In this document: positions 37,979-60,327 of the stretch, piece after piece
Position numbering within the stretch: position 1 is the first letter of the stretch
Layout of the letters: each line of letters opens with the position of its first letter
Source: Acidobacteriota bacterium
GTDB taxonomy: Bacteria; Acidobacteriota; UBA6911; JACQSX01
Direction: 5' to 3'
Assembly: GCA_016211105.1 (NCBI GenBank)
Contig: JACQSX010000005.1
Coordinates: 1 to 64,000 of the forward strand
DNA length: 64,000 bases
Notes under the pieces: model-generated
What the model saw: only the letters and a program-made list of their open reading frames with translations
Database searches by the model: none
Told to the model about the DNA's origin: nothing
Position numbers and translations under genes: made by a program

Positions 37979-38653
37979 ATGAGGGTGTTAGTTGTTGAAG
38001 ACGAATACAAGGTGGCCAGCTTCCTCCAAAAGGGACTGCAGCAGGAAGGTTACACGGTTGACACAGCGTCGGATGGAGTCAAGGCGATCGAGTTGGCCGA
38101 AGCAGGCGACTGCGATCTGATCGTGCTGGATGTGATGATGCCGAAGCTGGACGGCTTTGAGGTGGTCCGGCGGCTGCGGGCAAGAAAGAATACCTGTCCG
38201 ATTCTGTTGCTGACGGCGCGCGACCGAACGGAAGACAAGGTAACGGGTTTGGACCTGGGAGCCGATGACTACCTGGTCAAGCCATTTCAATTCGCCGAAC
38301 TGCTGGCGCGCATCCGCGCGCTATTGCGCCGCGCCACACCAGCCACGGAGCCCATCCTGTCGCTGGCGGATCTGGAGCTGGATCCGGCGACGCACGCCGT
38401 GAAGCGCAGGGGGAGAAAGATCGATCTAAGCAACAAGGAATATGCTTTGCTCGAGTATTTGTTGCGCAACAAAGAACACGCGGTCACCCGCAACATGATT
38501 CTGCAGCACGTCTGGGATATGGCCTTTGACAGCTTTACGAACATTGTGGACGTCTACATCAATTCCTTGCGCAACAAAATCGACAAAGGATTCGATGAGA
38601 AGCTGATTCATACGATCCGAGGGGTCGGCTATACGCTCAAAAGAGAGCCGTGA
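37979..38653 (+). CDS. OmpR-family response regulator
   Basis: The 224-residue protein has a receiver domain (phospho-acceptor Asp in LIVLDVMMPKLDG, switch Thr in LLTARD, Lys in DYLVKPF) and a winged-helix DNA-binding domain (SNKEYALLEYLL and TNIVDVYINSLRNKID). It most resembles CusR-like metal/envelope regulators. The histidine kinase gene overlaps its stop by 4 bp (GTGA). Confidence 0.92.
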   Translation: MRVLVVEDEYKVASFLQKGLQQEGYTVDTASDGVKAIELAEAGDCDLIVLDVMMPKLDGFEVVRRLRARKNTCPILLLTARDRTEDKVTGLDLGADDYLVKPFQFAELLARIRALLRRATPATEPILSLADLELDPATHAVKRRGRKIDLSNKEYALLEYLLRNKEHAVTRNMILQHVWDMAFDSFTNIVDVYINSLRNKIDKGFDEKLIHTIRGVGYTLKREP

Positions 38654-40053
38654 ACCTCCGTAGCCTGTGTTTCAAATTGGCGCTCTACTACGGCCTGACG
38701 GCCGGGGCGGTGTTTGGCGCCAGCGGCTATTTCGCCTATCAGCTCATATCCTCCCAGTTTCAGCGGCACTTCGACCAGCAATTGGAGGCCAAGGCGTCGC
38801 TGCTGAAAAGGAGCATCCGCTTCCAGGGAGAGAAGCCGGTCTTTGAAATCGAGGGCGGCCGCGAGTCCCAGTATGCCTTCAGTACTGTCTCTCGCTACGT
38901 GATGATCACAGACCATGCCGGGGAAGTGTTGTACCAGACCGACGAACTGCTGCTGCTGGAACCAACGTTCAAGAGGGGACCTATGCGCGCAGCCGGGGGA
39001 CAGGAGGCGCGCTTTGCCACTCTTCCCACAGAGTTGAAAGAGACGGTCCGGTTCGTGCAGCTTCCATTACAGGATCCCCACGGCCACAGCTATTTGATCC
39101 ATGTAGGCGCTCCGTTTACTCAAGTCGAACAGTACCAGCGGCAGTTGCTTTGGGGTCTGGTGGGGTTGGTGATGGTCCTCTTCGCTCTCTCGGTCGCGGG
39201 CGGCTGGTTCCTGGCCAAGCGCTCGCTGCAGCCCGTAGATGAGATGGCGCGCCTGGCCCGCCAACTGGGAGGCAACAACCTGTCGGCTAGGCTGGCGGTG
39301 CCTCCGACTCGAGATGAAATCAGCACGTTGGCGGAGACGTTCAACGAGATGATCTCACGCCTTCAGGAACAGTTCGAGCGCGTTAAACAATTCAACGCCG
39401 ATGTTTCCCACGAGCTGCGCACACCTCTGACCGTTATGCAGGGAGAAAATGAAGTGGCGTTGCGTTCTCGCCTGAGTGAAGAGGAGTACCGGACGGTGCT
39501 CATCTCCAATTTGGAAGAGCTGGAACGGATGAACCGGATTGTCAGTGATCTGCTGATATTGGCCCGCGCTGACGCCGGCGACCTGGAGATCCAGCGCACG
39601 CCGATTGACCTGAGCGCGACTGCCGCGGATGTGTGCGAGCAGTTCCGACCACTGGCGGAGCAGTCCGGCAAGAACTTGAAATGCCACGCCGCTGGTTGCG
39701 CTACGATTCTGGGTGACGCGGCGCAGTTGCGGCGCCTGGTAGTCAACCTGGTGGACAATGCCTTGAAATGCACGCCGGGCGGAGGAACGATTGAAGTGCG
39801 CACCCAGGTGGAAGGGGCAACCGTGCTCCTGTCTGTCGTCGACAGCGGAGTAGGAATTTCTGAAGCCGAGCAGGAAAAGATATTTGAGCGCTTCTACCGT
39901 GGTTCTCGTCAGCCTGACAAGCTCCGCAGCGCAGGCTTGGGACTAAGTATCGTACGGCAGATCGTGCATTCGCACGGAGGGCAAATCACAGTGAAGAGCC
40001 AGCCCGGAGCCGGCACTGCTTTTGAGGTAACAATTCCGGAACGACGCTCCTAG
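38650..40053 (+). CDS. Sensor histidine kinase, CusS-like
   Basis: The 467-residue kinase has two membrane segments around a periplasmic domain (about residues 35-165), a HAMP domain, the phosphorylated histidine in VSHELRTPLTVM, the N-box VDNALKC, and the G boxes DSGVGIS and SAGLGLSIV. The GTG start overlaps the response-regulator stop (GTGA). It should phosphorylate the adjacent regulator. The signal may be metal or envelope stress by family, but this is not proven. Confidence 0.92.
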   Translation: MNLRSLCFKLALYYGLTAGAVFGASGYFAYQLISSQFQRHFDQQLEAKASLLKRSIRFQGEKPVFEIEGGRESQYAFSTVSRYVMITDHAGEVLYQTDELLLLEPTFKRGPMRAAGGQEARFATLPTELKETVRFVQLPLQDPHGHSYLIHVGAPFTQVEQYQRQLLWGLVGLVMVLFALSVAGGWFLAKRSLQPVDEMARLARQLGGNNLSARLAVPPTRDEISTLAETFNEMISRLQEQFERVKQFNADVSHELRTPLTVMQGENEVALRSRLSEEEYRTVLISNLEELERMNRIVSDLLILARADAGDLEIQRTPIDLSATAADVCEQFRPLAEQSGKNLKCHAAGCATILGDAAQLRRLVVNLVDNALKCTPGGGTIEVRTQVEGATVLLSVVDSGVGISEAEQEKIFERFYRGSRQPDKLRSAGLGLSIVRQIVHSHGGQITVKSQPGAGTAFEVTIPERRS

Positions 40054-41115: not shown

Positions 41116-42147
41116 TCATTCCACCTGCTGTCCCTGTTTGTCGCGGATCATTATTTTGTTTATCCCATCTCGAATTGTGTATAGTGTCGTTCCGCTAAGA
41201 CTGAGGGCAAGAAAGCCTATCGCCCACAGGGGCGCAGTCAACAACACAAAAACGACCACGGAAAAGCCGGTGGCCAGATGCTTTTCGACTCCAAAAAGCG
41301 TGAGCCCCACGACACAGAAGAATTGATAAGTTCCTATGTTTCCCGGAGCGTTGGGAATAGCGGTCCCAAGATGAACGATCAGGAAAACGACGACGCCCGC
41401 CCACAACGATAATGGCAAGCCATAGGCCCACATGGCCAACCAAAAAGCGAGACACTGAAAGACAAGCAAGAGTAGAGAAACAGCAAAGGCCGTATACAGA
41501 AGACGCGACATGCCAATTTGCTGCAGACCGCGCGCAAGGCGACCAATCAGTGACGACATGAAGCCGGACTCCTCCTGCATTGCCCCAATTGCGGGGGCAT
41601 GTTCTAACAGCGCTTGCCGGCTACGCAGGACAGCGTAGAGGAACAGCCCGGCGCCGATCAAGACGATTACTCCTAGTATGTCCCCAGCTTTGAGAAGGTC
41701 TTTCGGCAACGGGAAGAAAATGGCCATCAGTCCGATGGCTAATGCCAACCAAACACCATCCAATAGGCGCTCCACAACCATGGAGGGAATGATGAATGAA
41801 AACTGGATGGGGACCCAGCGGGAAACCAGGTAAGCGCGGGCCAATTCGCCAAGTCGCATGGGCAAAACTTCGCTGGCGAAAAGGCCGACATAAATGGCTT
41901 GTGTGAGTCGCGACAGGGTCAAGGAACCAATCGGCTGTAAAAGAAGCTGCCAACGCAAACCTTGGCAGACATAACTGACGATATCCAAGACAATAGCTAG
42001 CGCCGCCCATCCCCAATGGATGTTGGTCATTCCTTGCAGAAGTTTTGATATTTGAATGTCGTGAAAAACCCACGCCAAGCACGCCGCGGCTAAGAGGTAC
42101 CCAAACATTGTCTTGATGAGCCTGGGGAAAAGTCCGCCAGTTCGCAT
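41116..42147 (-). CDS. Lysylphosphatidylglycerol-synthase-type membrane flippase domain (UPF0104)
   Basis: The 343-residue protein is made of about eight membrane helices and matches the N-terminal, flippase half of MprF: YVCQGLRWQLLL, then LPMRLGELARAYLVSRW, then the ending PNAPGNIGTYQFF. It would move aminoacylated phosphatidylglycerol across the membrane. ATG 42147 with GAAGGGG 6 nt upstream is chosen; a TTG at 42162 would overlap the preceding stop (TTGA). It is the last gene of a three-gene set that splits MprF functions. Confidence 0.88.
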   Translation of the reverse strand: MRTGGLFPRLIKTMFGYLLAAACLAWVFHDIQISKLLQGMTNIHWGWAALAIVLDIVSYVCQGLRWQLLLQPIGSLTLSRLTQAIYVGLFASEVLPMRLGELARAYLVSRWVPIQFSFIIPSMVVERLLDGVWLALAIGLMAIFFPLPKDLLKAGDILGVIVLIGAGLFLYAVLRSRQALLEHAPAIGAMQEESGFMSSLIGRLARGLQQIGMSRLLYTAFAVSLLLLVFQCLAFWLAMWAYGLPLSLWAGVVVFLIVHLGTAIPNAPGNIGTYQFFCVVGLTLFGVEKHLATGFSVVVFVLLTAPLWAIGFLALSLSGTTLYTIRDGINKIMIRDKQGQQVE

Positions 42148-42158
42148 TCGTCGCCCCT

Positions 42159-42944
42159 TCAACGCTCTGCCTTATTTATCCATTGCAATGCTTCGCGCAG
42201 AGTACGGAAGAATTCGTCCCTGTTGCCGTCATAACGATGGTTACGCGCCTGAATTAAAGAAAAACGTTTGGGTTCGTGCGCCGCGGAAAACAGATGCCTT
42301 GCAGTTTCCACTGCAACGTAGTCGTCCTGGCTTGACTGGATCATAAACAACGGCAGCGGAGCGACTTTGGGTAAAAATGGGAGGCTCAAAAACGTCGGCT
42401 CGGCCGGATCCTTTCCGGTGATGTACGTAAGGGCATCCGACCATCGCCATCCGAGAACGGACGATTCTCCTAATCCCAGGGTTATCAGCCCAAAGAATGT
42501 TTTCTTATTCTCATCTGAAGCCGCCGCCAGCAGGCAGAGACCTGCGCCCTCTGACCAGCCGATAAGAGTTACCCGCTCTGTGGACCCCTGAGTCATCCAC
42601 CCAGCGATTTGGCGAAAGTCACTCATGACGTCAGTTTCCTTCAATGTAGTCTTTCCGGTGAAGCTTTCCAGGTACCGCTTGGTGTCCAGCCCGTATACGT
42701 CATATCCCCAGGAGGCTGTAGTGGTGGCGACAGTAACGGCAAATCCAAACCATCCTCCATCTCCCGGAGCGAATAAGATTTTGCGATCCAGGCGCTGTAA
42801 TGCCGACTCAGCAGGGTAAAAATAAATGTCCTGGCGCTGGGCGCGGATGATTGGTGAATTCTTCCCCGCTACCGGGCTCTGCGCAAAAAGCGAAACGGGT
42901 AGGAGCAGCGTCAAGGCCAGCGTCGAAAAGCAGTGGCGATGCAT
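42159..42944 (-). CDS. AcvB/VirJ-type periplasmic lipid hydrolase
   Basis: The 261-residue protein has a signal peptide (ending LFAQ), then the alpha/beta-hydrolase elements of the VirJ/AcvB family: LFAPGDGGWFGFA, nucleophile motif GWSEGAG, acid near SSQDDYVA and a late histidine in RNHRYDG. Agrobacterium AcvB removes lysine from lysyl-phosphatidylglycerol, so the same reaction is predicted. The shorter start at 42944 (GAGGAAAG upstream) gives a clean signal peptide; the frame itself opens at 43073 inside the upstream gene. It lies between synthase and flippase genes. Confidence 0.85.
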   Translation of the reverse strand: MHRHCFSTLALTLLLPVSLFAQSPVAGKNSPIIRAQRQDIYFYPAESALQRLDRKILFAPGDGGWFGFAVTVATTTASWGYDVYGLDTKRYLESFTGKTTLKETDVMSDFRQIAGWMTQGSTERVTLIGWSEGAGLCLLAAASDENKKTFFGLITLGLGESSVLGWRWSDALTYITGKDPAEPTFLSLPFLPKVAPLPLFMIQSSQDDYVAVETARHLFSAAHEPKRFSLIQARNHRYDGNRDEFFRTLREALQWINKAER

Positions 42945-42958
42945 TCTTTCCTCGTAGG

Positions 42959-44590
42959 CTAAAATCCCGCCACTTTTCCTAGCGCAATCACAAGCCGAGG
43001 CAAGTCCAGGGGATTTCGATAGATCAAATATCGAGGCTCCCAGAAAGTGGCAAATTTCGACTTGTATTCCCACAATCCTCTGTAGCTGAAAAGAAAATTC
43101 AGGTGCTGGAAAAAATAATGGACCGCCCTTTCTTCCTTTGAGGCTTCCTCTTTCTCACGAAACCCGGCCATCGGCGCCATGCCCAAGTTGAAGCGTTCGA
43201 ACCCTCTCTCTTTATCATGTATAAATAGTTTGACAAACAGGTAGTCCATAATCCCGTTGGGGACATCCAGCCGCCGCCGCATGAGATCGACCGTCGCCTC
43301 ACCCTTGCGATAGGACGGGACGATATTTGCAAATGCCAGAATCCTGCTGTCCTTATCTGCAACGGTAAAAAGAGGGGTAGAGCGGATATAGTTTGGCTCG
43401 AACATACCCACTGTAAACCTGCGCTCTCGACGGCCCGGAAGTTGCAACCAGTCATCGGAAACCTCCTTGACCTGCCGCAGGATTTCATCGGAGATGGGCG
43501 GTTCAAAATGGAGGATACGAAAGCCGGACTTGTCCAGCAGATTGATATTGTGACGGATCCTCTTCATCGACTTTCCATCCAGGTTGAATCGCATCAGATC
43601 AACGACAGCGTCATCGCCGATTTTCAGTTTTCTAAAACCGAAACGCCGGTAGATGGGCAAAAAATCGGGAAGGACTTGGTGAAATCCCAGCCCCCAGTCA
43701 TTCTGTTCGCAATATTCTGAAAATCCACGGATGGTCTGCTCCATCTTCTCTTCCGGGCCTACCGGGTCGGCCAACACCACGGCAAAGTTCCCCCCCACAC
43801 AGTACGCTAGAAAACAATCCCGTGACGGCGAAAAAAAGTAGGATTTGTCCAACCGAAGCTTGAAGTAATCAAGCGAAGACCGTCCGTATTTGGCGAGGAT
43901 ATTTGCCGCTAGGGCGCGTTCCCGCGGAAGCGTCCGGAATCGGTAGATGACCGGCCGGTACAGCGCGAAGATGGAGTAGCCGACCGCAGTGACGGTCATT
44001 AGGTACAGAGAATTGACAAACCAGCGAGCGTAGCGGGTGTGCGGGACAACTTGCGGATCGCCCACCAAGGAGAAGAACAACAACGCTCGATGGACAGAAT
44101 CCTCGAAGGAGAAATCTATGCCAAACTCTCTTCGATCCAGAAGCCAGAATCCTGCTACCCCGTAGCCAAATGCTACCAGCACCGCCAGGCTAAATCGGAC
44201 TAACGCCCAGCGCAAGTCAGGGACACTACTGCAGACGGTGAAATGCCTCCGCGACGCCAGCAAGATCGCTACGAGCAACAACGAGAAGAGGGCTTCCTCA
44301 TAGTCGAGTCCCTTCGTCAGGTGGAAAATGACCGATACGCAGGCCAAAAGGAGCACTCCTTGGAATGCCCGCTTCTTGCGTTTGTAAATGTTGATTGAAG
44401 AAACAATCAGCGCGAATCCGCTCAACAAAGTTAGGAATCGGGAAAGGTGTAGAAACTCGAGAGGAAAGACCTCTCGCAGCAAGGTGGTCCGTTCTGGAAG
44501 GGCAGGGAACGTTAGGGAGGACAGATTGATCAGCCCACTTCCCAGACTCACCAGGGCGACGATCCAGACCAGAATCGGTCTCTTTTTCAT
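42959..44590 (-). CDS. Phosphatidylglycerol aminoacyltransferase (MprF C-terminal half, DUF2156)
   Basis: The 543-residue protein has about six membrane helices in the first 240 residues and then the soluble DUF2156 domain (FSPSRDCFLAYCVGGNFAVVLADPVGP, then KIGDDAVVDLMRF, and DVPNGIMDYLFVKL). It uses aminoacyl-tRNA to modify phosphatidylglycerol and so alters envelope charge. The N-terminal flippase half found in Staphylococcus MprF is absent and encoded two genes downstream. ATG 44590 is preferred over TTG 44614; neither has a clear ribosome site. Confidence 0.87.
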   Translation of the reverse strand: MKKRPILVWIVALVSLGSGLINLSSLTFPALPERTTLLREVFPLEFLHLSRFLTLLSGFALIVSSINIYKRKKRAFQGVLLLACVSVIFHLTKGLDYEEALFSLLLVAILLASRRHFTVCSSVPDLRWALVRFSLAVLVAFGYGVAGFWLLDRREFGIDFSFEDSVHRALLFFSLVGDPQVVPHTRYARWFVNSLYLMTVTAVGYSIFALYRPVIYRFRTLPRERALAANILAKYGRSSLDYFKLRLDKSYFFSPSRDCFLAYCVGGNFAVVLADPVGPEEKMEQTIRGFSEYCEQNDWGLGFHQVLPDFLPIYRRFGFRKLKIGDDAVVDLMRFNLDGKSMKRIRHNINLLDKSGFRILHFEPPISDEILRQVKEVSDDWLQLPGRRERRFTVGMFEPNYIRSTPLFTVADKDSRILAFANIVPSYRKGEATVDLMRRRLDVPNGIMDYLFVKLFIHDKERGFERFNLGMAPMAGFREKEEASKEERAVHYFFQHLNFLFSYRGLWEYKSKFATFWEPRYLIYRNPLDLPRLVIALGKVAGF

Positions 44591-47991: not shown

Positions 47992-49839
47992 ATGCAGGAG
48001 CCACTTGCGCTGATGCACATAGCCGCCCGCGAGTTCAATCGACGCTCTCTCTTGCTGGCATCGCTCCTAGGCGTCTGGCTCCTTGTCTACGTCCCTGGCC
48101 TATTCCGGCCGGCATTGCTGGATGATGCCGATTCGGTTCACGCGGAGGCAGCCAAAGAAATGGTGCAACGCCATGACTGGGTCACGATGCACATCAACGG
48201 CGGCTTTCGCTATTTGGAGAAAGCGCCGCTGATGTACTGGACCATCGCGGCCAGCTTCCGGATCTTTGGTATCTCAGAGTGGTCCGCCAGGCTGCCGCTT
48301 GCGTTGGGCATGTTGGCCCTCCTGTTAGCCACGTTCGCGATCGGTCGGCGGACCGGCGGGAACGAGGCGGGATTTTACGCCGCGCTGATTCTGGGAACTG
48401 CGTTTGGCCCTTATCTGTTCACCCGCATTCTCATCCCAGACATTCTGGTGGGACTGTGGTTGGCCCTCGGCCTTGGCTTTTTTCTTCGCGCGGTAAATGA
48501 GCAGCGTCCTTCGCGGCTGGTGTGCTGGGGTTTTGCTGCGACAACGGCGCTGAATGCCCTGACAAAAGGCCTCATTGGATTGATATTTCCGCTGGCCATT
48601 GCTGGAATTTACCTGCTTTTGACCCGCCGCCTGCGTCACCTGTTTGCAATGCGTCCCCTTTCCAGCACGGTAGTTTTTCTGGCAATCGCCGCGCCGTGGC
48701 ACATTCTGGCGGCTGTAAGAAACCCTCCAATGGGGCAAGCAAAAGGTTTCTTGTGGTTTTATTTCGTCAACGAGCATTTTCTACGCTACCTGAACATGCG
48801 GGTACCGCGCGATTACGACACGGTGCCGCTGTTTGTCTTCTGGGGTCTGATGTTGCTTTGGCTGTTTCCCTGGAGCGTATTCGTTCTTCAGGCGCTCGGG
48901 CAAGTTCCAATTCGTTTCCGCCGGATCCATTCCGGCCTCGATGCGCCGCGGCAAGCGAGTCTACTTTTTGGGCTCTGGATGGCAGTCGTTTTGGGTTTTT
49001 TCAGTTTCTCGACCCGGCAGGAGTACTACGCTCTTCCGGCCTTGCCCGCATTGGCGTTACTCATTGGGAACTGGCTTGCGCGCGAGTCTCAAGCTGCAGC
49101 GGAAAGTCCGCTGGGCCGAAGCGGCAGAGTTTCTTCCCTCGTCTTGTTCATCGTTGGAGTCGCCGGATCCGCGGTGGCGCTCGCTCTCGCTCTTATATCT
49201 CAACCCGCGCCGCCCCATGCGGACATCGCCGACCTGTTAGCGAAGAACCCGGAAAAGTATGCGCTCTCGCTGGGTCATTTCTTCGACCTGACGCCGCAGG
49301 CTCTCGGGGCCTTCCGCTTGCCGCTTTTGATCACTGGGCTTGCGCTGGTCACGGGGACAGGGCTGAATTGGCTGTTTCGGAGACGCGCCTCCCCTTTTCA
49401 TGGGAACCTGGTTTTGGCGGCCATGGGAGTAGCGGTACTATGTTGCGCTCACCTTGGTTTGTTGATCTTTGAACCCGTGCTGTCGTCAAAGGCCCTGGCG
49501 CTGGCCATTTGGAAAGAGTATCAATCGGGGGAAGTGGTCGTCATTCACGGGGAGTACGAGGAGAGTTCGACTCTCAATTTTTACACCGGGATTCAATTGC
49601 ACATCTTGAATGGGAGGCGCTCCAATCTCTGGTACGGATCCTTGTTCCCTGACTCTCCAAGGATTTTTGAGGATGGCGCTTCCTTCGCGCAGCTATGGGA
49701 AGGACCCACGCGCGTTTATCTTTGGACCGATGCAGCGCGAATGCCTGAGATTCTTCGAGATGGAAGTTCCAAGAATGTTTACGAGCTTGCTCGAGCAGGG
49801 GGGAAGTCAATTTTCAGTAATCGACCGACTCAGGATTAG
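47992..49839 (+). CDS. GT39/ArnT-like membrane glycosyltransferase
   Basis: The 615-residue protein has about eleven membrane helices and the GT39/GT83 pattern: a first periplasmic loop LLDDADSVHAEAAKEMVQRHDWVTMHINGG, then YLEKAPLMYW, and a C-terminal soluble domain. Such enzymes transfer sugar from a polyprenyl-phosphate donor to lipid A or protein. The acceptor is unknown here. No ribosome site stands out. Confidence 0.85.
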   Translation: MQEPLALMHIAAREFNRRSLLLASLLGVWLLVYVPGLFRPALLDDADSVHAEAAKEMVQRHDWVTMHINGGFRYLEKAPLMYWTIAASFRIFGISEWSARLPLALGMLALLLATFAIGRRTGGNEAGFYAALILGTAFGPYLFTRILIPDILVGLWLALGLGFFLRAVNEQRPSRLVCWGFAATTALNALTKGLIGLIFPLAIAGIYLLLTRRLRHLFAMRPLSSTVVFLAIAAPWHILAAVRNPPMGQAKGFLWFYFVNEHFLRYLNMRVPRDYDTVPLFVFWGLMLLWLFPWSVFVLQALGQVPIRFRRIHSGLDAPRQASLLFGLWMAVVLGFFSFSTRQEYYALPALPALALLIGNWLARESQAAAESPLGRSGRVSSLVLFIVGVAGSAVALALALISQPAPPHADIADLLAKNPEKYALSLGHFFDLTPQALGAFRLPLLITGLALVTGTGLNWLFRRRASPFHGNLVLAAMGVAVLCCAHLGLLIFEPVLSSKALALAIWKEYQSGEVVVIHGEYEESSTLNFYTGIQLHILNGRRSNLWYGSLFPDSPRIFEDGASFAQLWEGPTRVYLWTDAARMPEILRDGSSKNVYELARAGGKSIFSNRPTQD

Positions 49840-53739: not shown

Positions 53740-56700
53740 TTACCGTGCCTTTCGGTGCAGCGACAGGGATCCGATGTATACCTCTCCCGATGTCCCGTGG
53801 ATGGAGACGATGTCTCCCTTTCGGATGGGGTAGCGCTCCACTCCCGTGGCGTCTACAATCACGGCCGTGTGTTCTTTCAGATTGACGCGAAGGCCCACGG
53901 CGCTCATTACGGCGTGAAAGCGCTTGTTTTCAATTCCGTTGATCGCGACGGCGGCGTGAGAGCTCGACCCACCTTTTGCGGTCAGCAATCCATCTGCGGA
54001 AATGATCATAGGGATGTCGTCCGGCGCAGGGTTTTCCAGCACCAGTAGCACACCGTCGACATCCTCCCGCTCGTTTAAATCCGTCGAGGCTAGCTCCTTC
54101 CGGTCCATCTCGTCAAAAGCGACGCGTCCTCTGAAACCACCGCCTCGGATGCCGATTCCGCGTGTCGCCGACTCGCCGGGAGCAACAAAGGTGTTCGTCT
54201 CCAATTGCATGCTGGTTTCAGCGGTTCTGGACTGGAGAACGCTCAGCACCCCTCGCTCCACCGTGAACTCAATTTCCTGATCGGTCCCCGTCAACCTTCT
54301 AAGTTTGGCGACGATGTGCTTCAATCTTCGCTCCAGCATGGGCATCAGGTTGCCCAATGCTCCCATCGGCTGGAAGGAGGTGGAGGTGGTTAAAGCTCCG
54401 ACCAGATCGTCGCCCACGGCGGAGAATTTAATCTCTCCGGCGAATGTTCGGACTCCCCAATCGGTCATGTAGGTGCGGGGAATCACGCCGGTGAGCGAGG
54501 CCTTGGTTTCATCCATCCCCTCTCCAACCTCCTCGTTTTTTCTGTTTCCTGAGGCCATTTCCTGAACGATGACAGCGGTGTGCCACGTGTGACAGATGCC
54601 CTTGATCGTCCGGTACCGCCTTGCCCTCTCGCTGTTCCAAGACTGAAACACGGCTTGGACGGCGCTGAAAAGTTGTTTCGTGGGATCGTTAAGGATTTCA
54701 TCCAGTTGCGGGCCGAAGCCCTGCTGTCGAATGATGCTTTTGGACATCTCAACAATTTCTTTCATCGCCACCCAAGGAAGCCGGTATTTGTACGGGACCT
54801 TGTAGCGGCGCTTCATTTCCTCCACCAAGTGGAAGCCTTCGATGTCGATGGCCCACGCCGCCGCGCCGTAACTGGCAAGAAACCTTCGATAGGAATCATA
54901 AGCGTGCCATGCGTCGTCCTGTGCGAGCCCTTCGGCGATTGAGTCGTTGATGCCCGCGAAAACGATCGTCGACAAGATCCCGGGCAAGGAAAACACCGAG
55001 CTGCCCCGCACTGCCAACAGAAGCGGACACTTGGCGTCCCCAAACCGCCTTTCGACGCCATCCCGTCTGGTAATGTCCTCTTCCAGAACCCGAAGATGAG
55101 CGGCAATCTCCTTTTCCAATTGCGGCCGGTTGCGATGATAGAGCCCCGCGCGGGCGAACGTGGTCGGAAGGATGAAACCGTCGCAGGTGGGAATGTTCAT
55201 GTAGCTGATATAAATGAGACTGCTACCCTTTCCACCGTACTGGTCTCTCGGATTCGGCAGACTCTCAACGCGCTGCGCCAGCTCTTGTATATCTCCCTTG
55301 TGAGAAAGGTGAACCACGCCGTTGCCGGCAAAGCCCTCTAAGGGTTCAAGGGGCAGGTTCCCAATCGGTCGTGAGGAGTCCACAATGTGATTCTGGATGT
55401 GTGTTCTTGCAAGATCGCAAAAGTGAACCATGCTGTTCAGATCGTGCATGTAACGCGTCATGTTGGCGACAACGGCGCGCAGTTCGCCCGCCTCAAGCCC
55501 TAACCGGTGAGCCATCTTTTCGTAGGCAATCGTAGCGCGCTGCAGAATCTTGTGGTAATCACGCTGGATGCTCTCCAGCAGATTTGTCACCTCTGCATAC
55601 GTCTTGGTCGGGTCGGTCAATATGGCGGCAAAGTCGGCCAACTCTCGCGAGAATAAGCCATCATAGTCAAGATTCGCGATGCACATCCGAATGATATTGA
55701 GGCACTGGTTGAGTTCGACTCCCCGGTCGTCATATGCGGCTGCCACGTGTCGCAGAGCGAGAAATCCGATTTCTTCCAGCAAGCAGTCCAACTGATACAG
55801 ATAATAACGCTGCTCGGTAAATCCACCCCGCTGGATGCCACTGTGAAGGGTCTGGCGGAGTTTGCAAATTTGTGAGAAGGTTTCAAAGAAGGCCCCTTGT
55901 TCGTAACAAGCCAGCACCTCCTGAAGTGACCGGAAGAGGTCATTTTGGTAAGCGTTCTGGATTTCCCGGCTAAAACTCCTCACACAGTCTCTTGCGATCC
56001 GTTCCGTGCCTTCAACAACAAAACCGGCCTGGTCCGGCATCAGGGCCGTCAATGCTTCCAATCGGCTTTTGAATCCTTCCGCCAGGCCCGAAGGAGAAGA
56101 AAAATCTTCGACTTTCCTGATAAGAATCCGCAGATGGTGATAGTAGACCCATCGGTTTCTTGTCCGAATCCCCTTGTTGACCAGTGCCTCCAATTCGTCC
56201 TCGAGACTGTTGCCGAATTCACACCGTAAGAGGCTCTCGGCGTACGCGTCCCGCCACTCCTGGATTCTCGTTACCACTTCCGAAATCCCGAGAAGTTTCT
56301 CCAAACCGAGTACGACGCGCTCCACAATCCTGCGGGGAGTTTTGCGACTTCTTGCCAGCATGTCGGCTGGCGACGGAGCCTCAAAACCGAAGCGGGCCAG
56401 TCGCTCCGCATTCCCCGTGTCGAGGTAGTCTAAGTACATCTTCGCGAGAAGAAGCGTCCTTTTTCCCAGCGCATGATGCGCGCTCCTTCTCAGCTCATTG
56501 ACAATCGCGCTACCCCGAATGTGAATCTCAGCTAGATCAATCGTGTCATTCCACAGCTCGTCGATGACTTTCGGTCTGAGGATAATGCCGGATAAATTTC
56601 TGACAAGAATTCGTGTGAGCAGCCGATGCCGGCGTGAAAATGGCCCATTGAGGAGGCGAACCAGTTGGGTGATGAGATTATTGACTTCCGGCTGCACGTT

Positions 56701-57279
56701 CTTTGCCCCGAGAAACGCTTCAAAGGAGAGACTGCACAATTTCGCGGCCAAGAAGCGAAGACAGTAGATCATTTCGTTGCGGTTCGTACACGCGTTCACT
56801 CTTTCCAGCAGGAAAGCAATATCGCGGATTCGCTCAATATGGATTTCCGCAATCTGGTCATCTTGGAATTCAAACAGCTCTCGCTCCAAATCGACGGGTT
56901 CGCCAGACAAGCCGATGGTTCCGGCAATGAGAGCGTCTGTATAAATCGTCCCGGCGGGAAATTGCCGGACGACGACCCGATCCGTTGTTCCATCCCGAAC
57001 GATGTAGACAACCAACGTTTCCACAGCCAGATAGGGCACAATCAAAAGAGGCGCGTCTCTTAGGATCCGATTATTGACAATCCCGAACCGCCCCACTCTG
57101 CCCGCTATTTTGGATTTGATGTGGATGTAGTAACGCAGCGCTTCCTTGCTGTCTACGTCTGCCTCGGCGGGGACATGGGCGCGGTACAACGCTAGGTTGA
57201 GAGTTGCGATTTGCTCCTTCTCCTCTTCGGTGAAGGGTTCCAGAGTGAATATTTCGGGTCCGGCGGCGCTCTGTTGCAT
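53740..57279 (-). CDS. PPDK/PEP-synthase-like protein without the PEP-binding barrel
   Basis: The 1179-residue protein has three parts. Residues 1-650 are mostly helical and not recognised. Residues about 670-1050 are a PPDK-type ATP-grasp domain (YGGKGSSLIYI, VRGSSVFSLPGILSTI, PTKQLFSAVQAVFQSWN). The end (about 1080-1179) is the phosphohistidine domain, with the phosphorylated His in LTAKGGSSSHAAVA and GDIVSIHGTSGEVYIG. The C-terminal TIM barrel that binds PEP/pyruvate in PPDK and PpsA is missing. It starts 20 bp after the enolase fusion gene (CGAGGG site), so they form an operon. The phosphoryl acceptor is unknown; the large N-terminal region may supply it. Confidence 0.85.
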   Translation of the reverse strand: MQQSAAGPEIFTLEPFTEEEKEQIATLNLALYRAHVPAEADVDSKEALRYYIHIKSKIAGRVGRFGIVNNRILRDAPLLIVPYLAVETLVVYIVRDGTTDRVVVRQFPAGTIYTDALIAGTIGLSGEPVDLERELFEFQDDQIAEIHIERIRDIAFLLERVNACTNRNEMIYCLRFLAAKLCSLSFEAFLGAKNVQPEVNNLITQLVRLLNGPFSRRHRLLTRILVRNLSGIILRPKVIDELWNDTIDLAEIHIRGSAIVNELRRSAHHALGKRTLLLAKMYLDYLDTGNAERLARFGFEAPSPADMLARSRKTPRRIVERVVLGLEKLLGISEVVTRIQEWRDAYAESLLRCEFGNSLEDELEALVNKGIRTRNRWVYYHHLRILIRKVEDFSSPSGLAEGFKSRLEALTALMPDQAGFVVEGTERIARDCVRSFSREIQNAYQNDLFRSLQEVLACYEQGAFFETFSQICKLRQTLHSGIQRGGFTEQRYYLYQLDCLLEEIGFLALRHVAAAYDDRGVELNQCLNIIRMCIANLDYDGLFSRELADFAAILTDPTKTYAEVTNLLESIQRDYHKILQRATIAYEKMAHRLGLEAGELRAVVANMTRYMHDLNSMVHFCDLARTHIQNHIVDSSRPIGNLPLEPLEGFAGNGVVHLSHKGDIQELAQRVESLPNPRDQYGGKGSSLIYISYMNIPTCDGFILPTTFARAGLYHRNRPQLEKEIAAHLRVLEEDITRRDGVERRFGDAKCPLLLAVRGSSVFSLPGILSTIVFAGINDSIAEGLAQDDAWHAYDSYRRFLASYGAAAWAIDIEGFHLVEEMKRRYKVPYKYRLPWVAMKEIVEMSKSIIRQQGFGPQLDEILNDPTKQLFSAVQAVFQSWNSERARRYRTIKGICHTWHTAVIVQEMASGNRKNEEVGEGMDETKASLTGVIPRTYMTDWGVRTFAGEIKFSAVGDDLVGALTTSTSFQPMGALGNLMPMLERRLKHIVAKLRRLTGTDQEIEFTVERGVLSVLQSRTAETSMQLETNTFVAPGESATRGIGIRGGGFRGRVAFDEMDRKELASTDLNEREDVDGVLLVLENPAPDDIPMIISADGLLTAKGGSSSHAAVAINGIENKRFHAVMSAVGLRVNLKEHTAVIVDATGVERYPIRKGDIVSIHGTSGEVYIGSLSLHRKAR

Positions 57280-57299: not shown

Positions 57300-59939
57300 C
57301 TATCTCTGCAGCGGCGAACTCGACCCGACGGGCGAGATCTCGGTCGTGTCTCCGCCGGGTAGCGTCGACTTCGGTCGGTCAAGCCTGGAGGCCACTGGAT
57401 TCATCACCTCGGAAGCCGGTTGGCCGGCGGGCAATTCAATCTCTGTCCTTGAAGGTGGCAGCGTACCCGCGGGGGAGAGCTCATCGTTAGCATAAATGTT
57501 GGTGGTCTCGCGGATTGCCTGGTACAGTGGTTTTCCCTGCGCCTCCAAAAGTCGGTTTACTTCTCGGAGGGCGTACACATAGTCGGAAAATCTACTGCCA
57601 GCGATCGGTATTTTGTAAGTCCCTGCCAGAGAGTCGATGATGGCAAGCATCTCTTCACGCAACAGCTCATAGAGTTGCTTTCCCTGCACATGGGCGAGCG
57701 CCCGGGCAAGCGCCAGGGAGACGGATAACAGCGCATTCATGCCGAGATTCTGCTTGCGCTGCATGACTCGAACGGCGCTTTCCCGCGAAGCGTGTAGGTC
57801 GAGCTTGTTTCGCTGCCGGGCCAGACGTAACTCCAGTTGCAAAAGGGCTCGATCGATATCCTTGACGGTGTGGGCGGCGATATCGCGCCCTTCAAAATAT
57901 GGCGCGACCGTCTGACGGACATTGTCGACGGCATTCAGACAGCCCTTTCCCTGGTAACGCTGGGCGCGGGTGAAGATGGCTCTCAGCCGCTCGTCGCCCG
58001 GAGTTCGGCCTGCTGGAACATCTTTTTTGAAGGCATACACGCCGGGTTCCACTTCTCGGAAGAAAGTTGAATACTTCTTAATCAATTCTCGGTGTTCCGC
58101 GTACTCGACGAAGGCGTCAACAAGGTGTACTGCTTCCCCGGTGCCGGCAGAAGTGCCAAGGGGTGTCGCGCCGTTGAACGTAAGGCAGACGCCTGCATTC
58201 GGGAGATGGAGTTCCACCTCGACGCCAACGGTTGGAACTCCGGCATTGGTAGGCTCCTCGTAAGCGGTGACTTTGCGAATCACCGCGTTCTGCCCTTCAG
58301 ATATGGCGCCCAGCCTGCCGGCGTCGGCCAGCTTTGCCATCAATGTTGTCACGGCTTGATATTTGACGAGCCGCTCCGTGTTTGCTCCACCTCCCGCCTT
58401 GAGGCCCAAGGCGTTGGCAGCCAGCGCAATGTGGGCTTCCATCGTATCATTCGGGCTCTTGGACCGGTGCGATACGATCAGTTCCAGATTCTTGCCTAAC
58501 GCCACCAGCATTGCGAGCAGGGTCTCGTAGAGGGAACCGATTTGGTTGGCCTTGATCAGCGCGACATTGATCAGCCCTTGGGAGGCGGCCATCTCGATGG
58601 TTCGATCGTTGGTAGTTACCAGATCGTCGCCGATGATGAAGATTCTGTCTCCCAGGGCTGCCAGTAACTTTTTCCATCCTTCGTGGTCGTTTTCCGAAAA
58701 GCCATCTTCAATTGAGAGGATCGGAATCTCATACTTTTGAACTGCCTGGTTGTAAATCTCCAAGACCCCGTCCCGATCCATGACAATTTTGGTCTTATCC
58801 CTCCAGAAAAGGTACATTCCCACGGCGTCAGGCACGTTGTACTCGGTCCGGTAGGCGTTCTCCAGTTCACTCATCGCTGGGTCCAGAGCAATGGCGACAT
58901 CGATACCGGGCCGATAGCCGCACTCCTCGATTGCCTGCTTCATCATTGCCCAGAGCCGGATTTCAGGGAGGGGATAATCTCTTTTGTCAATGTAGGGAGC
59001 CAGGCCGCCTTCCAACCCGATACCCATCACCCGGCACCCATCTTCCTTCTCAATGATCTCTTTGAGACGGGTCTGCAGCCGCACAGTCATCTCTTGGGCT
59101 TCCTGATAATCGGGCGCGCCCAGGATCAAGAACATGGCCTCCTGCATACTGATGTTCGACTCCGGATAATCTTTTTCCGTATGTCGACCCCCCATGCCGC
59201 AGTTCCGGAATTGCCAGGGCGCCGCTACCGGACCCAGGTGAGGATGGTTGGCCTCCCGCACGCGCTCGGCCAACATCTTTTGCTTGACCTTCGTGGCCAG
59301 TTTGTACCACTCGGACAGCTTGGGCACCGCTTGAGCCGATTGTTGCGCTCTTCGCTCCTGTTCTTTGAATGCCGCATACTTCCCGGGGTCTGCCAGCAGA
59401 AAGTCCAGAAGCGTCACGATGCCGATGCCGAGCAGAAGTCTCCCCGCATAGACAGCAGCCGGGATGTGCGATAGAAGCCCCAGGGCAATGAGGAGCAGAG
59501 CGGGAGGCAGCGCACTCCATGCCGCATTGCGGCTTGCCCGTGGACCTTCCGCCGCGACCGCCAGGTTATAGGGGGCATCAGGATAATAATTCAGACCTTC
59601 CCGCTTGATGCCGCCGCTTTTTCCATAAGGGGCAAAGGTAAATACCTTCGCATAGTACAGAAGACGTTGCGGGAGAGGTTTTCCAAGTTGTTGTCTTACT
59701 TCTTCCAGCACCTTCTGGTTCAAAGCATTTAGTTTTGCCGCTTTCCGAAAATGGCCAATTTCGTGGATGGCAATTCCCGTGTGGAAGCTGAGGTACATGA
59801 ATAGAGCCGAAACTAAAGTTTCCGGGCTGTAGAAGATGAACCGCAGGACCTCGGCCTTCAATACCGCGGCGGCTGGCAAGACCAGCACGGAGGAGATGAA
59901 CGCTACGTGAAATGAAACCAGAATATGGTTGGCAATCAC
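57300..59939 (-). CDS. Circularly permuted enolase fused to an intramembrane HExxH domain
   Basis: The 879-residue protein starts with an M50-like membrane domain (about 1-195): several hydrophobic helices, HEIGH at 59-63, and LLDFLLADPG near 177-186. Next comes the enolase catalytic barrel (about 242-537): His253, Gln266-Glu267, Glu310, Asp353, Glu411, Asp439, Lys463, Arg492-Ser493 and Lys514 match E. coli H159, Q167-E168, E209, D246, E290, D317, K342, R371-S372 and K393. Only then does the usual N-terminal domain follow (about 547-760; PTVGVEVEL, SAGTGEAV, LGMNALLSVSLALA), so the order is reversed. A low-complexity tail closes it. GTG 59939 with AGGAGGGG upstream is preferred over ATG 60161, whose first 74 residues look non-coding. 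Confidence 0.88.
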   Translation of the reverse strand: MIANHILVSFHVAFISSVLVLPAAAVLKAEVLRFIFYSPETLVSALFMYLSFHTGIAIHEIGHFRKAAKLNALNQKVLEEVRQQLGKPLPQRLLYYAKVFTFAPYGKSGGIKREGLNYYPDAPYNLAVAAEGPRASRNAAWSALPPALLLIALGLLSHIPAAVYAGRLLLGIGIVTLLDFLLADPGKYAAFKEQERRAQQSAQAVPKLSEWYKLATKVKQKMLAERVREANHPHLGPVAAPWQFRNCGMGGRHTEKDYPESNISMQEAMFLILGAPDYQEAQEMTVRLQTRLKEIIEKEDGCRVMGIGLEGGLAPYIDKRDYPLPEIRLWAMMKQAIEECGYRPGIDVAIALDPAMSELENAYRTEYNVPDAVGMYLFWRDKTKIVMDRDGVLEIYNQAVQKYEIPILSIEDGFSENDHEGWKKLLAALGDRIFIIGDDLVTTNDRTIEMAASQGLINVALIKANQIGSLYETLLAMLVALGKNLELIVSHRSKSPNDTMEAHIALAANALGLKAGGGANTERLVKYQAVTTLMAKLADAGRLGAISEGQNAVIRKVTAYEEPTNAGVPTVGVEVELHLPNAGVCLTFNGATPLGTSAGTGEAVHLVDAFVEYAEHRELIKKYSTFFREVEPGVYAFKKDVPAGRTPGDERLRAIFTRAQRYQGKGCLNAVDNVRQTVAPYFEGRDIAAHTVKDIDRALLQLELRLARQRNKLDLHASRESAVRVMQRKQNLGMNALLSVSLALARALAHVQGKQLYELLREEMLAIIDSLAGTYKIPIAGSRFSDYVYALREVNRLLEAQGKPLYQAIRETTNIYANDELSPAGTLPPSRTEIELPAGQPASEVMNPVASRLDRPKSTLPGGDTTEISPVGSSSPLQR

Positions 59940-60327
59940 CCACCCCTCCTGAAGAAAGCAGCCTGGTAGCCGATCGACCAAGGAGGCTCCCCAAGGTCCG
60001 GAACGGTCATGGGTTTGACATGGCGAGCCAGGGGTATGGCGGCGCTGTCTCGGTAGGGTCCTGCAGACGGTTTCCGCAATTGAACTTGCCGTCTCACTCG
60101 GGCGGTCTTGAACAATCCCGTTACATCGACTGGAAGTTTGAAAATGTTTGATCTTGACCATTTCACCACCTAATCACCACGTAGGGCGAAGACAAACGAC
60201 GATCTGCTTAAGCCTAATCTGCTTCGGTTGGTAGAAAGGATATTCCTTTTTTCCTGCTGATTGAAGTCAAAATGGGAAATCGGGAGATCCGACACTCCGG
60301 GCAAGATGTGGCTGCCAAGGGGATGCG
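59940..60327. other. Leader region between the NrfD-like and enolase genes
   Basis: These 388 bp separate two minus-strand genes. Two frames stay open through the part near the enolase start: one continues into the enolase (from ATG 60161) and the other is a 77-codon frame whose TGA overlaps the enolase GTG as GTGA. Neither translation resembles a known protein. The region may hold the operon promoter. Confidence 0.5.

Follow-up and report, generated by a model that had tools for sequence, protein, structure and literature searches.

Elsewhere in bacteria most of the work of making aminoacyl lipids and flipping them across the membrane is done by a single protein, MprF, a well-studied resistance factor in which both activities are normally fused and hence hard to separate. 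Here we describe a locus of an Acidobacteriota bacterium (assembly GCA_016211105.1) in which the corresponding functions are encoded by different genes. The stretch of DNA analyzed, referred to below as the window, comprises the first 64,000 nucleotides of contig JACQSX010000005.1. At 41116-44590, all on the minus strand, we found an aminoacyl-phosphatidylglycerol (PG) synthase, an alpha/beta hydrolase and a standalone flippase, in that order. We consider it probable that they form a three-gene aminoacyl-phospholipid module (make, flip and erase) that was inherited as a unit and did not arise when a fused MprF recently came apart. All the kinds of parts are known; what appears to be new is the conserved operon combining them, with a flippase that is not of the MprF/YbhN kind and a hydrolase family that stands beside AcvB. 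Our literature search retrieved no description of the triad, nor of MprF in Acidobacteriota; a preprint about MprF-type translocases that stand alone (10.1101/2022.03.11.483950, cited by PMC11980842) could contain an earlier mention.

The features of the locus are the following:

42959..44590, minus strand: aminoacyl-PG synthase, separate gene (ATG start, 543 aa), with an N-terminal membrane part and a cytoplasmic double-GNAT catalytic domain, lacking a flippase domain
43019..43903, minus strand: LPG_synthase_C catalytic domain (PF09924) of the synthase, with the essential residues of Staphylococcus aureus MprF, E624 being Asp
42945..42958, minus strand: synthase-hydrolase gap, 14 bp, with a purine-rich ribosome-binding-like site ahead of the hydrolase start
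42159..42944, minus strand: putative periplasmic alpha/beta hydrolase of a VirJ/AcvB-like sister family (ATG start, 261 aa), candidate aminoacyl-lipid esterase
42879..42944, minus strand: predicted signal-peptide-like N-terminus of the hydrolase, MHRHCFSTLALTLLLPVSLFAQ, from the sequence and a hydropathy segment at aa 4-27
42552..42554, minus strand: predicted nucleophile codon, Ser131 (GWSEGAG), invariant in a 13-sequence alignment
42324-42326 and 42237-42239, minus strand: codons of Asp207 and His236, predicted triad partners of Ser131
42148..42158, minus strand: gap of 11 bp from the hydrolase stop to the flippase ATG; with TTG as the start instead, the two genes would overlap by 4 bp
41116..42147, minus strand: standalone PF03706/TIGR00374 lipid translocase with the fold of the MprF transport domain (ATG start, 343 aa)

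The closest organisational parallels are gpgSDF of Pseudomonas aeruginosa, for glucosaminyl-PG (GlcN-PG), and hexSDF of Clostridium difficile. Both are three-gene lipid modification operons with a standalone flippase of the COG0392/YbhN type in the last position, but they add a sugar instead of an amino acid and their middle gene is predicted to encode a deacetylase of the cytoplasm and not a periplasmic eraser (PMC12713373). With the bifunctional synthase-flippases MprF and LpiA our locus shares the family and residues of the catalytic domain and, in the standalone flippase, the fold of the transport domain. It differs from them in having separate genes in the reversed order, a synthase clade of its own, a flippase from another PF03706 subfamily, Asp at the position of E624 and replacements of the gate residues E280/R304 of RtMprF. 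The flippase-less CpMprF1 of Clostridium perfringens, compared by its description, is likewise a synthase whose membrane region is limited to the second part, of six helices; however, it is described as relying on the flippase of another MprF (PMC11980842), whereas here a dedicated flippase and a hydrolase are encoded alongside. AcvB, a relative of our hydrolase, is a proven lysyl-PG (Lys-PG) hydrolase encoded together with LpiA (PMC13197417). The LpiA-AcvB operon of Agrobacterium, or VirJ, resembles our locus in the pairing of a synthase with a periplasmic serine hydrolase that has equivalents of the Ser/His pair and of D271. The differences are that LpiA is fused and that the hydrolase found here consists of a single domain, groups in another clade and has neither D340 nor D370, its acid residue being a canonical one. 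Finally, the same synthase family is found with a non-MprF translocase at four loci of the same phylum (L072, L074, L075 and L122), where a DedA (VTT) domain replaces the MprF flippase, although there the translocase is fused to the synthase. This fusion was confirmed with Pfam in the first three and is indicated by tree position and length in L122. In L072 and L074 a hydrolase of the same family as that of the triad is found next door.

Conservation and descent of the three-gene order

We searched 396 genomes of the phylum for PF09924 and found it in 110. Most of the strong matches were fused MprFs, and these often had a neighbouring hydrolase or two. Separate synthases were present in six of the sampled genomes (G000, G180, G187, G203, G331 and G363) and at one locus from another collection (L006), the only one given by an earlier scan of contig collections with the synthase, in place of which the phylum and family surveys were used. 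Of 101 genomes from another family, that of G187, 11 had a separate synthase, all 11 as synthase-hydrolase-flippase. In total this exact order was found at 14 loci, where adjoining genes are separated or overlap by between a few and a few tens of bases, and such repetition argues that the arrangement is not due to chance. The initial annotation had reported three consecutive and co-oriented genes spaced by about 11-15 bp, which is what we found (14 and 11 bp with the ATG starts as assigned), and the neighbourhood search that it proposed has shown the triplet to be conserved. Besides, in all the split-synthase loci with downstream sequence covered (17 of 17), a flippase of the triad subfamily is located after the synthase or the hydrolase.

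The 18 separate synthases formed one clade outside the fused MprFs (support 100/99 for the first eight; Shimodaira-Hasegawa-like approximate likelihood ratio test 98 for all). An independent flippase-less synthase (L070) was nested inside the fused-MprF clade. For all three genes the nearest relatives of the window were those of L068 (G331), whose genome shares the phylum of the window but belongs to a different class, and not those of the classmates G180 and G203. The sample contained a single genus-mate (G218, 77% complete), which had no such genes. This patchy distribution suggests transfer or repeated loss.

Several loci showed variations around this theme. L006 (5818-9390) has two tandem synthases (603 and 583 aa) followed by the hydrolase and the flippase, with a two-domain AcvB further downstream; the two synthases possibly represent two amino acid or lipid specificities. 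At L101-L107 a fused MprF lies between a single-domain VirJ-like hydrolase and a two-domain AcvB-like one. In family f66 (L067, L183, L186, L189 and L192) response-regulator-like (LLADDH..VR) and kinase-like genes adjoin the triad and, judging from their sequences, could be a possible regulator.

Properties of the three proteins

The synthase matched PF09924 with 254 bits. Against the MprF model NF033480 it reached 461.6 bits, aligned only over model positions 320-838, which correspond to the second membrane part and the catalytic domain. The flippase protein scored 20.3 bits with this model, so that both are under its cut-off of 600 bits for a bifunctional MprF. The MprF chains in the PDB aligned to the same part (query 18-548), and hydropathy segments were found at aa 3-153 and 192-210. 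The protein retained all 32 columns that were at least 90% conserved in an alignment of 46 rows (synthases and references). The residues K547, K621, E624, D731, R734 and K806 are essential for Lys-PG synthesis in S. aureus (PMC2774229), and we mapped them through the sequence of the B. licheniformis structure. Five of the six (K547, K621, D731, R734 and K806) were identical in the window synthase, as were the positions of D546 and E685. The position of E624 was Asp here and in 17 of the 18 members of its clade, while it was Glu in 31 of the 32 members of the group formed by the fused MprFs plus L070, and in the four DedA fusions. Hence the catalytic residues of this DUF2156 protein are kept, with one conservative change. 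Homology points to the aminoacyl-PG synthase class. Six transmembrane segments plus the C-terminal domain are sufficient for Lys-PG synthesis and the two halves of MprF function as separate proteins (PMC2774229), which makes a natural two-gene synthase/flippase system biochemically reasonable.

The flippase protein matched PF03706 (138 bits) and TIGR00374 (67.8 bits). Its AlphaFold2 model (predicted local distance difference test, pLDDT, 82.8) matched well only the structures of MprF, which took the six top places in Foldseek and gave Z values of 17.9-20.4 versus 5.4 or less for the others. By profile comparison, other standalone PF03706 proteins were close to the group (E 5.5e-58) and the MprF N-domains were far away (E 2.6e-4). 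The standalone set was chosen by similarity to the triad flippases and the contrast is somewhat biased, but the comparison with YbhN of Escherichia coli is free of this bias, and YbhN lies near MprF (E 6.7e-38 against the MprF N-domains). A maximum-likelihood tree separated triad flippases and MprF N-domains by a long branch (100/100). A non-MprF origin argued from the tree alone was dropped, because the approximately unbiased (AU) test permits joining both groups (p 0.42), and the claim of a different subfamily therefore rests on the profile distances. On these data the flippase has the fold of MprF and is of a PF03706 subfamily other than MprF/YbhN. In all the split flippases shown, the Glu of the E280-R304 pair of RtMprF was replaced by Gln, with no Arg after it. 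Transport by PaMprF does not need the pair (PMC11980842), so this loss is no argument against a flippase function.

The hydrolase matched the VirJ profile PF06057 with 29.3 bits (cut-off 22) over only profile positions 3-80 of 191, and its relative in L006 fell just under the cut-off (21.9 bits). The AlphaFold2 model (mean pLDDT 89) is a standard alpha/beta hydrolase with Z of about 24 to esterases, the best matches being generic esterases and proline-iminopeptidase-like enzymes. The AcvB structures (9XHM/9XHN) were absent from the fold matches, in a library that ends in April 2026 and probably predates their release, and for this reason the comparison with AcvB was made by sequence. Ser131, Asp207 and His236 were invariant in the 13-sequence alignment, and a Ser, Asp, His triad was present in 14 of 14 triad hydrolases. 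The equivalents of AcvB Ser336, His433 and D271 aligned as S, H and D in the window protein (the D271 position is N in L006). The position of D340 was Gly here and Gly, Asn, Ser, Cys or Ala, never Asp, in the 14 triad hydrolases, and no acidic residue was found at the position aligned with D370. In AcvB the former is reported to be conserved among homologues, including those of pseudomonads that make alanyl-PG, and the latter has been linked to lysine recognition (PMC13197417). Since the pocket lacks acidic residues that AcvB uses for lysine, the substrate is possibly not Lys-PG. A tree built from 70 domains showed the triad hydrolases (99/95) apart from the clade of A. tumefaciens AcvB (99/99); they were near single-domain hydrolases flanking fused MprFs and DedA-synthases, in a weak grouping (84/56). 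Thus, of the "AcvB-type hydrolase" proposed initially, the VirJ match stands in partial form, whereas the clade and the loss of both aspartates speak for an enzyme that, as far as its sequence indicates, is AcvB-like and is not AcvB.

A first survey of the hydrolase was biased, as the loci had been collected around synthases, and a phylum-wide search independent of them was then carried out. In 392 genomes there were 16 strong matches (300-369 bits), the next one dropping to 147. When gene positions were compared, 14 of the 16 adjoined a PF09924 aminoacyl-PG synthase, either flippase-fused, DedA-fused or separate. In all cases (15 of 15), the genomes with a strong member of the hydrolase family also encoded a synthase.

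A putative make, flip and erase cycle and its alternatives

Conserved and co-oriented genes for a synthase, a translocase and a hydrolase of the periplasm make plausible the full cycle of aminoacyl lipids that had been suggested at the outset. In the inner leaflet, PG or a lipid like it would receive an amino acid that the membrane-anchored synthase takes from aminoacyl-tRNA. The separate PF03706 protein, whose fold is predicted, would carry the modified lipid to the periplasmic leaflet, replacing the role of the N-terminal domain of MprF, and it may owe its selectivity to proximity, a proposal already made for PaMprF. At the periplasmic face the hydrolase would cleave the aminoacyl ester, restoring the original lipid and setting the level of the modified one; the triad and the export signal are read from the sequence and the substrate is suggested by the context. 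AcvB binds LpiA directly (PMC13197417), and by analogy a physical complex among the proteins of the module is conceivable. The module would descend as a unit and not from a recent break-up of a fused MprF. With three small separate proteins for synthesis, translocation and removal, each step can be knocked out alone. This bears on a current dispute, in which MprF-type translocators are taken either to select aminoacyl lipids or to be general scramblases made selective by the fused enzyme, as nothing is fused here and a different PF03706 subfamily appears to have taken the flippase role. The hydrolase family, found beside synthases of three architectures, may represent a second kind of eraser for aminoacyl lipids.

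Some of the data weigh against such a module. Three loci do not have the middle hydrolase, L032 and L071 being synthase-flippase pairs and L069 a synthase-flippase-AcvB arrangement. The hydrolase lacks D340, reported to be conserved even in the Pseudomonas homologues of AcvB, so that cleavage of aminoacyl-PG does not follow from the likeness to AcvB. The AU test does not reject joining the triad flippases with the MprF N-domains. The flippase subfamily is also found with no adjoining synthase (two members in G296 and one each in G187 and G289; L156, L157, L158 and L159), and PF03706 proteins can move other lipids, PaMprF being promiscuous (PMC11980842). In an alternative reading, the flippase would be a general phospholipid scramblase or a mover of other lipids, with a place in the operon that reflects bulk membrane balance and not dedicated export. 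PaMprF does scramble many lipids in vitro (PMC11980842), and among the nearest wider relatives of the flippase are genes adjoining glycosyltransferases. We consider this unlikely, given that the flippase accompanies every split synthase with downstream sequence covered and stands in for a domain that could not otherwise be missing. It is also quite unlikely, in our opinion, that synthase and flippase act as proposed while the hydrolase attacks some other ester or a peptide, such as a different lipid or an antimicrobial that enters from outside. The generic esterases and peptidase-like enzymes among its structural matches and the loss of both AcvB aspartates would fit, and the true two-domain AcvB also present at L006 and L084 suggests a different job for the hydrolase; however, the family adjoins aminoacyl-PG synthases of three architectures and most members retain D271 and the GW loop region of AcvB.

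The initial annotation saw in the locus an MprF split in two. In that reading an ordinary MprF would have been cut into two genes, and an AcvB gene would have come to lie between the two. This would explain the domain content (MprF plus a VirJ-like hydrolase), and both L070, a real flippase-less synthase among fused MprFs, and the AU test leave room for it. Nevertheless, the gene order is reversed relative to the domains of MprF, the separate synthases are outside the fused ones, the flippase profile is far from the MprF N-domains and the hydrolase does not group with AcvB. For two of the three parts the family branch is not the expected one, "simply a split MprF" is not supported, and the break-up scenario, already disfavoured, seems to us very improbable. 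Within the module reading there is a more specific version that we hold only tentatively, its chances being well short of even. The product would be an aminoacyl lipid other than Lys-PG (with another amino acid or acceptor). Its export would fall to a translocase subfamily that is not known to have any link with such lipids, and its removal to a new family of hydrolases, different from AcvB. The E-to-D change of the synthase and the loss of the acidic pocket of the hydrolase would both reflect this different substrate.

Neighbourhood of the operon

The gene downstream of the operon encodes a Clp-like protease of the SDH type, and the one upstream encodes an Nramp transporter. No Rfam element was found near it, and no sigma-70 consensus promoter was found for it. 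The source genome has one gene with PF09924, one with PF06057 and three with PF03706. Within the window there is an OmpR-type two-component pair at 37979-40053 and, near this pair, a PMT_2 membrane glycosyltransferase at 47992-49839 (plus strand), with a weak match to ArnT, the lipid A aminoarabinose transferase (93.8 bits, far under the cut-off of 567). Further along, a 953-aa protein (57300-60161, minus strand) has Enolase_C (320-616) ahead of Enolase_N (628-777), reversed with respect to a normal enolase. It adjoins the gene of a 1179-aa protein resembling pyruvate phosphate dikinase (PPDK) and phosphoenolpyruvate (PEP)-utilising enzymes (53740-57279, minus strand), and an ordinary enolase is also present in the source genome, on contig C22.

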